Positions 28,969 to 32,327 of a stretch of DNA of 64,000 nucleotides are shown one piece after another. Both the position numbers and the translations under genes were made by a program. Position 1 is the first letter of the stretch; each line of letters starts with the position of its first letter. Source of the DNA: Halobellus limi (lineage in GTDB: Archaea > Halobacteriota > Halobacteria > Halobacteriales > Haloferacaceae); contig NZ_CP031311.1 in assembly GCF_004799685.1 (NCBI RefSeq), positions 372,001-436,000 of the forward strand, written 5' to 3'. Under the pieces are notes generated by a model. It was not told the DNA's origin and made no database searches. It saw only the letters and a program-made list of their open reading frames with translations.

Positions 28969-30549
28969 ATGCACGAGCGCGATCGTCTCTCGACCGGGAT
29001 CGCCGGTCTCGACGAGATCCTCCACGGCGGGCTCCTCCGGGAGCGGGCGTACATGATCACCGGCGGCGCCGGGACGGGAAAGACGATCGCGGGACTCCAC
29101 TTTCTGACCGCCGGCATCGACGCGGGCGAGAACGCCCTCTTCGTCGCCTTCGAGGAGGATCCGGCGGACCTCGCCGCCGACGCGGAGCAACTGGGGTTCG
29201 ACACGTCCGAGATCACGTTTCTCGACCTCTCGCCCGACGCGGATCGGTTCGTCGACGACCGGTCGTACGACGTGTTCGAGCCGGACGTCGTCGAGGGGTC
29301 GGGCGTCACCGCGCGGATCGTCGAGGCGGTCGAGGAGACCGCCCCCGACCGCGTCTTCGTCGACCCGCTGACGCACCTGCAGTACCTCGCGCCCGACGAG
29401 TACCAGTACCGCCAGGAGGTCGCCGGCTTCGTCCAGTACCTCGCCGACGCGGGCGCGACCGTCCTGTTCAGCGCGCAGGCGGCCGTCGAGGGCGAGCGAG
29501 CGACGCTCGAGTACCTCTGCGACGGGAGCATCAGGCTCGCACACGCTCCCAAGGGGCGGACGATCGAGGTGACGAAGCTCCGCGGCTCCGACTTCCTCTC
29601 GGGCGCGCACACGGTCCGGATCACTGACGGGGGGATGTCGGTGTTCACGAAGCTCTCTCCCGACGCCCACGGTCGTGATCGGGACTCTCGGACGCTCTCG
29701 TCCGGCGTCGACGAACTCGACGCTCTCCTTCACGGCGGCATCGAGGGTAGCACGGTGACGGTCGTGAGCGGCCCCAGCGGCGTCGGGAAGTCGACGACGG
29801 CGACGCAGTTCGCGAGCGAGTCGGCCGCTCGCGGCGAACGCGCCGTCTTCTACCTCTTCGAGGAGACGCGCGACACCTTCCTCCGCCGCTCGGAGGGCGT
29901 CGGCGTCCCGATCGAGGATCTGGAGGCCGAGGGGACCCTCTCCGTCGAGGAGGTCGAACCGCTGTCGATCTCCCCGGACGAGTTCGCAACGCGGGTCCGG
30001 AGCCAGGTCGAGGAGCGCGACGCCGAATTCGTCGTGATCGACGGCGTCTCCGGGTACCGGCTCTCGATCCGCGGCGACGAGTCGGAACTGATCCGCGAAC
30101 TCCACGCGCTCGGGCGGTACCTCAAGCGGATGGGCGTGAGCGCGATCTTCGTCGACGACCTCGACTCCGTCACGGGCGACTTCGAGCCGACGAGTTCGAA
30201 CATCAGCTACCTGGCCGATAACCTCCTGTTTCTCAGATACCTCGAAGCCTACGGCGAACTCCGCAAGGCGATCGGCGTGCTGAAGAAGCGGACCGGCGAC
30301 TTCGAGCGGACGCTCAGAGAGTTCGAGATCGGAGCGGACGGCGTTCACGTCGGCGAGCCGCTGACCGGGCTCCGCGGGATTCTCACGGGAACGCCGGAGT
30401 GGGGCGGCGACAGTCCGCTCGAACCGCACGCCGCCGATGCCGACGTGGCGTCCGGCCGCGCCGCCGGCCCGGGGAGCGGAACCGACCGGGCCGACGGGAC
30501 CGACGGTCCAGCCGAGGACGGCCCCGGTCGCTCCGATCCCTCCGAATGA
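28969..30549 (+). CDS. KaiC-like double RecA-domain ATPase
   Basis: A 526-residue protein with two KaiC/RecA modules. The first has Walker A GGAGTGKT at 32-39 and the paired glutamates of FEEDP at 62-63. The second has Walker A GPSGVGKST at 268-276 and FEETRD near 295. The last 60 residues are a disordered Asp/Gly/Pro tail. No kaiA or kaiB is nearby, so a clock is not implied; such proteins often act as ATP-driven signal relays. Its stop overlaps the start of the LOV kinase gene (ATGA), so the two probably work together. An AT-rich box lies at 28939-28946. Confidence 0.9.
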   Translation: MHERDRLSTGIAGLDEILHGGLLRERAYMITGGAGTGKTIAGLHFLTAGIDAGENALFVAFEEDPADLAADAEQLGFDTSEITFLDLSPDADRFVDDRSYDVFEPDVVEGSGVTARIVEAVEETAPDRVFVDPLTHLQYLAPDEYQYRQEVAGFVQYLADAGATVLFSAQAAVEGERATLEYLCDGSIRLAHAPKGRTIEVTKLRGSDFLSGAHTVRITDGGMSVFTKLSPDAHGRDRDSRTLSSGVDELDALLHGGIEGSTVTVVSGPSGVGKSTTATQFASESAARGERAVFYLFEETRDTFLRRSEGVGVPIEDLEAEGTLSVEEVEPLSISPDEFATRVRSQVEERDAEFVVIDGVSGYRLSIRGDESELIRELHALGRYLKRMGVSAIFVDDLDSVTGDFEPTSSNISYLADNLLFLRYLEAYGELRKAIGVLKKRTGDFERTLREFEIGADGVHVGEPLTGLRGILTGTPEWGGDSPLEPHAADADVASGRAAGPGSGTDRADGTDGPAEDGPGRSDPSE

Positions 30550-32327
30550 CGGGCGAGCGGACGACCCCCGAGACGAACGTCCTCGTCCTCGTCTCGACCC
30601 CCGGGAACCGCCGCGTGCTCGTCGACTGGATCCGGAACGCGTCGGCGTACAGCCTCGTCACACCGCCCGGGGAGGGCGTCGAGCGGCTGCCGGCCTTCGA
30701 CGTCTGTCTCGCCGACCGGGCCGGACTGCAGCGGTTCGCCGAGGCGATCCGGCGGTCGCAGGCGGAGGAGGGGACCTTCCTCCCCTGCCTGCTCGTCGAA
30801 GAGCGCGGCCGGGGGCTGGAGCGGCTCGACTCCTCGCTGCGGAATCTGATCGACGACGTGGTGACGGCGCCGATCGATCCCGAGCGGCTCCGGTTCAGGA
30901 TCGACACGCTCGCCCGTCGCCGGCAGCTCTCTCGGGACCTCTGGGAGGCCGAAGAGCGGTACCGCCGGCTGTTCGAGCTGGCGCCGAACGCGAAACTCCT
31001 GGTCGACGACGGCGAGATCACCGCGGCGAACCGGGCCGCAGAGCGGTTCTTCGGACGCGATTCGACGTCGATCTCGGGCGACGCCCCGGAGCGGTTCGTC
31101 GCGGCGGCGGACCGCGGTCCCTTCCGTCGACTGCTGGAGAACGCGCCCGCGGAGGTCACCGCCGGCGGTCCGCCGTATCGGACGGTCGCCTTCGAGACCG
31201 ACGATCGGACCGCGATCTGTGAGGTGGCGGCCGTCCGCACCGGGGAGGGGGACGAACTCCTGGTCCTCGTTCAGGACGTGACCGAGCGGATCGAGCGCGA
31301 GCGTCGACTCGAACTGTACCGCCGAGCGATGGACGAGGCGGCCGTCGGGATCACGATCACCGACCCGGAGCTTCCGGACAATCCGATGATCTACGTCAAC
31401 GAGAAGTTCGTCGAGATCACCGGTTACGACCGCCAGGAGGCGCTCGGTCGCAACTGTCGGTTCCTGCAGGGAGAGCGGACCGACGAGACGAGCGTCGCTC
31501 GGATACGGCGCGCGATCGACGTCGAGGAGTCGGTCAGCGAGATCCTCGTGAACTACCGCAAGGACGGCGAGCCCTTCTACAACGCGCTCGACGTGATGCC
31601 CGTCACAGGCGCGTCGGGGACGGTGACGAACTACCTCGGATTCCAGCGGGACGTCACCGAGTGGGTCAGGAACCGGCGGCGGCTCTCGGTGCTCGACCGG
31701 GTGCTCCGACACAACGTCCGCAACCGGATGAACGTCGTCACCGGCTACGCCGAGCAGTTGATCGATCACGACGAGCCCGCGGTCCGAACCGCCGCCGAGC
31801 GGATCCTCGACGCGGGCGAGGACCTGCTCGGACAGAGCGAGACCGCACGACACTTCCGAGACGTCGTGAGCAACGAGTCGACGACGGTCGATACCCGTGA
31901 CCTCGTCGCCGACGCGCTCGACGCCATCGAAGAGGTCAGGTCGGGCTATCCGGACGTTCCCGTTCAGACGTCCCTCCCCGACGAGGCACCGATCCGCGGC
32001 GACCAGGGCGTTCCCCTCGCGGTCGTCGAGATCGTCGAGAACGCGGCCCAGCACGGCGATCCGCCGGTCGTCGTTCGGATCGATCCCGGCCCCGAGGAGA
32101 CGGTGCTCGCGGTCACCGACCAGGGCGGGGGAATCCCCCGGCACGAACACACCGTCTTCGGCGACGCCGAGGAGCGTCCGACATCCCACGCCGGCGGCGT
32201 CGGCCTCTGGCTCGTCCGCTGGACGGTCGAGCGGATCGGCGGGCGGATCGAGTACTCCGAGGGCGACGGATCGACGGTCGAACTGTTCTTTTCGACCGCC
32301 GACGACGAGTCCGACCTCGCCCACTGA
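30546..32327 (+). CDS. LOV-domain blue-light photoreceptor histidine kinase
   Basis: A 593-residue soluble kinase: a receiver-like N-terminal domain without obvious phospho-acceptor set (about 10-130), a PAS domain (about 140-250), a LOV domain (about 265-375), the H-box VLRHNVRN with His389, and a HATPase domain with ENAAQHGD and TDQGGGIP. The LOV signature GRNCRFLQG (301-309) has the photoactive Cys304, and the flavin contacts Asn336 (NYRKDG), Asn346 (FYN) and Gln367 (GFQRD) are all present. Blue-light sensing through FMN is therefore very likely. No membrane helix is seen. It overlaps the KaiC-like gene by four bases. Confidence 0.9.
   Translation: MTGERTTPETNVLVLVSTPGNRRVLVDWIRNASAYSLVTPPGEGVERLPAFDVCLADRAGLQRFAEAIRRSQAEEGTFLPCLLVEERGRGLERLDSSLRNLIDDVVTAPIDPERLRFRIDTLARRRQLSRDLWEAEERYRRLFELAPNAKLLVDDGEITAANRAAERFFGRDSTSISGDAPERFVAAADRGPFRRLLENAPAEVTAGGPPYRTVAFETDDRTAICEVAAVRTGEGDELLVLVQDVTERIERERRLELYRRAMDEAAVGITITDPELPDNPMIYVNEKFVEITGYDRQEALGRNCRFLQGERTDETSVARIRRAIDVEESVSEILVNYRKDGEPFYNALDVMPVTGASGTVTNYLGFQRDVTEWVRNRRRLSVLDRVLRHNVRNRMNVVTGYAEQLIDHDEPAVRTAAERILDAGEDLLGQSETARHFRDVVSNESTTVDTRDLVADALDAIEEVRSGYPDVPVQTSLPDEAPIRGDQGVPLAVVEIVENAAQHGDPPVVVRIDPGPEETVLAVTDQGGGIPRHEHTVFGDAEERPTSHAGGVGLWLVRWTVERIGGRIEYSEGDGSTVELFFSTADDESDLAH

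Follow-up and report, generated by a model that had tools for sequence, protein, structure and literature searches.

What KaiC proteins signal to in archaea, and outside cyanobacteria in general, is an open question, and the authors of a survey covering 11,264 genomes came to the conclusion that non-cyanobacterial KaiC output must take a different, unidentified route (PMC5520375). The question is posed in concrete form by a gene pair at positions 28,969 to 32,327 of a 64,000-nucleotide stretch of the Halobellus limi genome (NCBI RefSeq assembly GCF_004799685.1, contig NZ_CP031311.1, positions 372,001 to 436,000 of the forward strand; the whole stretch is referred to here as the window), where a gene encoding a double-domain KaiC-like ATPase precedes one encoding a histidine kinase with a LOV domain. 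Both open reading frames (ORFs), and the ATGA stop/start overlap between them, are present as an initial annotation of the window had described; that annotation read the pair as a light-signaling module and suggested the receiver-like N-terminal domain of the kinase as the contact. Sequence comparison with relatives indicates that KaiC and this N-terminal domain, a pseudo-receiver (PsR), form the constant element, that the variable parts lie C-terminal of PsR with LOV outside the core of the pair, and that the window kinase represents one form of a general KaiC–pseudo-receiver pair. The suggestion of the N-terminal domain is thus the best supported of the earlier guesses, since it is this domain that accompanies KaiC from lineage to lineage, which LOV does not, and it is here that we infer a contact.

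Relatives of the window KaiC were collected from public genomes, from a set of 391 Halobacteria genomes (of which 244 gave a match at E ≤ 1e-60), and from fetched loci, and the neighbors of 133 KaiC ORFs in 130 loci were counted; the closest named relatives in public genomes are from Halobellus species. A protein with a receiver-like domain at its N-terminal end adjoins KaiC in 126 of the 133 cases (90 directly downstream in tandem, 35 in divergent orientation, and one upstream), and 119 of these 126 proteins belong to a single PsR family. Among the exceptions, one KaiC (L017) sits where its contig ends and another (L026, in a Methylobacter genome) is linked to KaiB. Tandem pairs are closely spaced, with 98 of 122 lying no more than about 25 nucleotides apart and 25 sharing exactly the ATGA overlap of the window pair. 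Chance neighborhood is ruled out by this adjacency together with the absence of PsR beside the other KaiC paralogues of the same genome (loci L001–L003 and L006–L008). The initial annotation had asked whether the two genes are found apart in most relatives; they are found together. Stand-alone receivers (≈115–130 residues) replace the PsR protein at KaiC genes in L078, L080, L081 (two), L085, L099, and L117. These were considered as naked PsR domains and rejected, because their low PsR-profile scores (17–32) and their retained Asp and Lys mark them as another receiver type.

The identity of the N-terminal domain was established from its predicted fold and its residues. In the window kinase, Pfam recognizes PAS, PAS, and HATPase_c domains and leaves the first 130 residues unmatched, and the PsR family matches no Pfam family, with 0 of 50 PsR domains matching Response_reg. 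A search of the PDB with the PsR profile recovers receivers, the best being those of PleD (E 3e-15), and the confident AlphaFold model is receiver-like (Foldseek TM 0.6–0.69 to receivers). The metal-binding acidic pair is lost, in that the first position is hydrophobic and the second retains an acidic residue in about 30 of 101 domains; the Lys column holds mostly Ala, Thr, Leu, or Ile, and Thr/Ser is found in 26 of 101. A pseudo-receiver has a receiver fold but lacks active-site residues of true receivers, and the N-terminal domain of the window kinase, which retains the Asp, is one by both its modeled fold and its residue losses. A generic receiver as the full account was rejected, given the absence of Response_reg matches, the one match in the genome of origin, and the recovery of ordinary bacterial receivers at E about 1e-9 or weaker.

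Because the PsR profile was seeded from KaiC neighbors, the reverse question was put genome-wide. The genome of origin contains one PsR match at E ≤ 1e-3, the window kinase. Among 97 Halobacteria genomes, 61 harbor both KaiC and PsR, one KaiC only, four PsR only, and 31 neither (Fisher p 7e-20). In seven named genomes (six bacterial and one Natronococcus, with the KaiB control excluded), the single strong PsR match lies at the KaiC locus, and the next matches are weaker by many orders of magnitude. PsR is rare elsewhere at E ≤ 1e-14, being found in 7 of 369 gammaproteobacterial and 13 of 301 Chloroflexota genomes, with KaiC alongside at 6 of 7 and 11 of 13 loci, respectively. A further 40 PsR loci, picked for having no KaiC position listed, comprise 29 with KaiC alongside, ten without it, and one ambiguous case. 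Orphan PsR proteins with no KaiC in the fetched stretch are found at L143–L146, L160, L162, L167, L173, and L174, four of them in genomes without this KaiC. At nine other loci of this further set of 40 (L151, L155, L165, L170, L171, L172, L175, L179, and L182), one KaiC is followed by two successive PsR proteins with differing C-terminal modules, an arrangement that looks as if one KaiC ring fed two outputs.

Alignment of the partners reveals one N-terminal domain common to all major lineages, followed by remainders that are unrelated. When tallied by Pfam, most of these remainders prove to be PAS-containing histidine kinases; HTH_10 with a BAT domain is found in 7 of 102 haloarchaeal partners, and GGDEF-EAL, an output seen in gammaproteobacteria, in 9 of 15 bacterial partners. 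A quick, weakly rooted LG+G4 tree of KaiC, for which sequence motifs served to assign LOV and the other output classes, shows at least eight changes of LOV state, at least 12 of output class, and one of orientation, and the KaiC–PsR pairing outlasts the switch to divergent orientation. Distances between KaiC sequences correlate with those between their PsR domains (Mantel r 0.71, n = 101, permutation maximum 0.19), also within Halobacteria (0.69, maximum 0.18), and in genomes with two pairs, PsR tracks the clade of its own KaiC in 11 of 12 tests.

The pair extends well beyond haloarchaea. Chloroflexota and gammaproteobacterial sequences form a single clade inside the haloarchaeal radiation of the KaiC tree, a placement that suggests transfer of the KaiC–PsR pair as one unit, although the root of the tree is weak. 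In alpha- and betaproteobacteria, a kinase lies directly after KaiC in 9 of 9 cases (KaiC about 34–39% identical). The N-terminal domain of this kinase lacks the Asp and, when profiles are compared, emerges as a distant homologue of PsR (probability 90%, E 1.7e-6). Three PsR kinases of another archaeal class each come directly after a single-domain, CI-like KaiC (L229, L230, and L231). In a cyanobacterium, plasmid pMB01 of Acaryochloris sp. ‘Moss Beach’ (L206) carries KaiC with a divergently oriented PsR kinase.

The window KaiC contains two RecA/KaiC ATPase domains, each with a Walker A motif and catalytic Glu residues, and these motifs are retained in both domains of nearly all relatives. 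In the phosphorylation-site columns of 101 relatives, the T426 position is Thr or Ser in all 101, the S431 position Ser in 100, and the T432 position Tyr in 93. The window protein falls far below the NCBIfam circ_KaiC cut-off (187.8 versus 546 bits) and also below that of PRK09302 (268 versus 408 bits); it is a KaiC-like protein and not the clock KaiC. The initial annotation had noted no kaiB nearby, and this extends further: KaiB was not found above cut-off in the genome of origin or in any of 97 Halobacteria genomes, and the KaiB of a KaiBC timing system is thus seen neither in the genome nor beside KaiC. The final ≈45 residues (30,409–30,549) form an acidic, low-complexity tail past the stretch that aligns with distant relatives. 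Relatives in plasmid records H2, H3, H11, H15–H17, and H29 are annotated as gvpD or gas vesicle protein GvpD, probably a misleading name.

The module attached to PsR in the window has the sequence features of a LOV histidine kinase. Its LOV domain can be aligned with structures of YtvA and phototropin (E 1e-30 to 1e-35), and each flavin-contact residue (N, C, R, Q, N, N, and Q) has its match, which bears out the earlier claim that every one of them is present, including Cys304 in GRNCRFLQG; the adduct Cys and flavin contacts of a LOV photoreceptor are thus in place. The AlphaFold model of the domain superimposes on a solved LOV domain with an rmsd of 0.9 Å (TM 0.95–0.96) and leads into the kinase helices. 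The kinase has a phospho-acceptor His and the N and G boxes of HATPase_c (residues 497, 525, and 551), and His389 and Asn393 are invariant in 29 relatives. A Pfam scan of nine neighboring genes detected no response regulator, in agreement with the initial annotation. Intact LOV domains are also found in the partners of other Halobellus species and of Haloferax, and the LOV Cys motif in 47 of the 126 KaiC partners. Among divergent LOV partners (e.g., L053, L055, and L059), many of the LOV-like domains have the sequence GEDCRFLQ, in which Asp replaces the flavin-contact Asn ahead of the Cys, and their photochemistry may differ. The same genome encodes a second LOV-like domain (51% identity; G000:C1:533195-533551) within a 642-codon open frame. 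Coordinates are collected in Table 1.

Table 1. Features of the KaiC–PsR kinase gene pair, in window positions
Feature	Position	Strand	Basis and remarks
KaiC-like double-domain ATPase gene	28969..30549	+	526 aa; Pfam PF06745 x2, E 5.8e-73; full-length KaiC structures matched, E 3e-63
CI (N-terminal) KaiC domain	28990..29652	+	Walker A GAGTGKT (residues 33-39); catalytic Glu pair AFEED
CII (C-terminal) KaiC domain	29689..30351	+	Walker A GPSGVGKST (residues 268-276); catalytic Glu pair LFEET; second PF06745 place G000:C1:401698-402360
KaiC phosphorylation-site segment, residues 408-414	30190..30210	+	T408 = T426, S413 = S431, Y414 = T432 (cyanobacterial KaiC numbering; alignment to 8zn5)
ATGA stop/start overlap of KaiC and kinase genes	30546..30549	+	sequence
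PsR-PAS-LOV histidine kinase gene	30546..32327	+	593 aa; AlphaFold model pLDDT 84.5
Pseudo-receiver (PsR) domain, residues 9-132	30570..30941	+	AlphaFold pLDDT 94; Foldseek receiver fold; Asp57 retained, remaining active-site residues lost; sole genome match
Continuous helix from PsR to first PAS, residues 112-145	30879..30980	+	AlphaFold model
First PAS domain, residues 146-244	30981..31277	+	Pfam; AlphaFold model
LOV domain, residues 265-369	31338..31652	+	Pfam PAS; structure alignments; AlphaFold model
LOV Cys304 codon (GRNCRFLQG)	31455..31457	+	sequence
Dimerization/phospho-acceptor helices, residues 371-442	31656..31871	+	H-box RHNVRN; His389 codon 31710-31712; AlphaFold model
HATPase_c catalytic domain, residues 449-584	31890..32297	+	PF02518 E 6e-13; AlphaFold model

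We lean toward a model in which docking on the KaiC ring lets PsR read the nucleotide or phosphorylation state of the ring and pass it on to exchangeable outputs, with blue light as a second input here. The N-terminal PsR of the partner would dock probably on the CI tier, to which the pairing of a CI-only KaiC with PsR kinases points; KaiB docks at the CI tier in cyanobacteria. KaiC would hydrolyze ATP and probably autophosphorylate at the conserved S413 (the S431 equivalent), so that its state would report energy status or time, and PsR would sense this state without phosphorylation chemistry. The signal would then pass via the continuous helix to whichever module is attached. In the Halobellus-type lineage, this module is the PAS-LOV-histidine kinase, so that blue light, acting at Cys304, would provide a second input to the same kinase, whose phosphate would go to a response regulator encoded elsewhere. 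We infer the KaiC–PsR contact, docking at CI, the direction from KaiC to kinase, the kinase activity of KaiC, and the flavin photocycle; the GGDEF-EAL and HTH_10 outputs favor the direction from KaiC to output, and the reverse, from kinase to KaiC, could also operate. A bolder proposal, which we consider improbable, is a KaiC timer free of KaiA and KaiB: the KaiC–PsR pair would act as a portable oscillator or hourglass, with PsR taking over from KaiB and KaiA the reading of the ring, and would have spread as a unit among haloarchaea, Chloroflexota, and halophilic gammaproteobacteria, driving exchangeable outputs (phosphorelay, transcription, and c-di-GMP), with light-resetting by LOV in Halobellus and Haloferax.

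Several observations weigh against the docking model. The phospho-site Asp is retained in 97 of 101 PsR domains, and PsR may therefore be phosphorylated after all; at seven KaiC loci, a stand-alone receiver of a different type takes the place of PsR; and no natural KaiC–PsR fusion was found among about 200 KaiC ORFs. PsR also occurs without KaiC, as in the ten KaiC-less loci of the further set, four of which sit in genomes lacking KaiC, and at three of the six PsR loci of the other archaeal class, where no KaiC is next door. In that class, the Walker A Lys is replaced by Arg (GESGTGRT) in both complete copies of the CI-only KaiC (L230 and L231), and this KaiC may thus be a dead ATPase. Finally, congruence of the KaiC and PsR trees can stem from co-inheritance of neighbors without contact. 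Along these lines, KaiC and the sensor protein might be co-regulated neighbors that share a physiology and do not bind, and indeed, all evidence here is genomic, and tight operons alone are not proof of contact. We nonetheless give this only a small chance, as archaea, Chloroflexota, gammaproteobacteria, and a cyanobacterial plasmid all retain the same N-terminal domain while the rest of the partner varies, the pairing survives divergent orientation, and PsR follows KaiC paralogues within a genome.

The retained Asp, together with the stand-alone receivers that keep Asp and Lys at KaiC loci, would also fit a PsR that is a working receiver, with D57 phosphorylated by the CII kinase of KaiC or by another histidine kinase; the loss of the acidic pair, the substitutions in the Lys column, the low count of Thr/Ser, and the loss of the Asp as well from the related alpha/betaproteobacterial domain make this highly improbable. 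That the LOV kinase is instead the defining partner, through which blue light acts on KaiC, is in keeping with the intact LOV domains of the window, of other Halobellus species, and of Haloferax, and with the light/dark regulation of four Haloferax volcanii kaiC homologues, including cirC (PMC3941300). This too we judge unlikely, since only a minority of partners carry the LOV motif, the LOV state changes repeatedly on the KaiC tree, and GGDEF-EAL or HTH_10 partners without LOV retain the same PsR–KaiC pairing. The light-signaling module first proposed therefore stands as a conserved gene pair, but light, given these LOV counts and the turnover of outputs, is not supported as its essence.

A concrete candidate for the output route sought in non-cyanobacterial organisms would be a small domain that keeps company with KaiC in different domains of life even as the outputs are exchanged; PsR names an interface to test and offers a readout of KaiC where KaiB is absent. 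The general idea is not new: Makarova, Galperin, and Koonin (2017), as cited in PMC5847659, proposed archaeal KaiC-like ATPases as signal-transduction hubs tied to sensory and output domains, and the KaiC–PsR pair would be one instance of this, although that citation of the proposal describes no fixed pseudo-receiver partner, bacterial spread, or output swapping. Literature searches, whose reach excluded the 2017 paper itself, returned no report of the pair; the KaiC hub is already published, and we provisionally regard the KaiC–PsR partnership as new.

The closest well-studied parallel is the cyanobacterial KaiABC system, which the window KaiC resembles in its double-domain architecture, intact Walker motifs, catalytic Glu, and conserved Ser at the S431 position. 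Pseudo-receivers are also part of the cyanobacterial clock, where that of CikA binds KaiB and that of KaiA binds quinones (PMC12632262). The haloarchaeal system differs in lacking KaiB (0 of 97 genomes above cut-off), in placing PsR at the N terminus of the KaiC neighbor itself, in the Tyr that replaces Thr432 in most relatives, and in the circ_KaiC score of the window protein (188 versus 546 bits). SasA carries an N-terminal KaiB-like domain and CikA a C-terminal PsR after phytochrome-like GAF and histidine kinase domains, whereas the window kinase has an N-terminal PsR and no KaiB-like or GAF domain. With the LOV histidine kinases, i.e., the YtvA-FixL chimera YF1, Brucella LOV-HK, and archaeal ALovD-1, for which archaeal LOV photochemistry has been demonstrated (PMC12202551), it shares a LOV domain feeding a histidine kinase, and solved structures match; the window kinase adds to these the N-terminal PsR and a coupled KaiC gene. 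In H. volcanii, cirC, the only double-domain KaiC among four cir genes, lies between orc2 and ‘fixL’, and the cir genes are expressed in step with light/dark cycles, with expression disturbed when cir genes are knocked out (PMC3941300). Compared by its published gene order, this locus matches the layout orc1/cdc6, KaiC, and PsR-LOV-histidine kinase of two Haloferax loci (L087 and L096; placed in this genus because G113 matches an H. larsenii plasmid at 99%), while the H. volcanii paper calls the neighbor FixL, an oxygen sensor, and makes no mention of PsR, LOV, or a partnership (PMC3941300). With the LOV version present in Haloferax, gene deletion in a laboratory strain could test the link to KaiC as well as the link to light.

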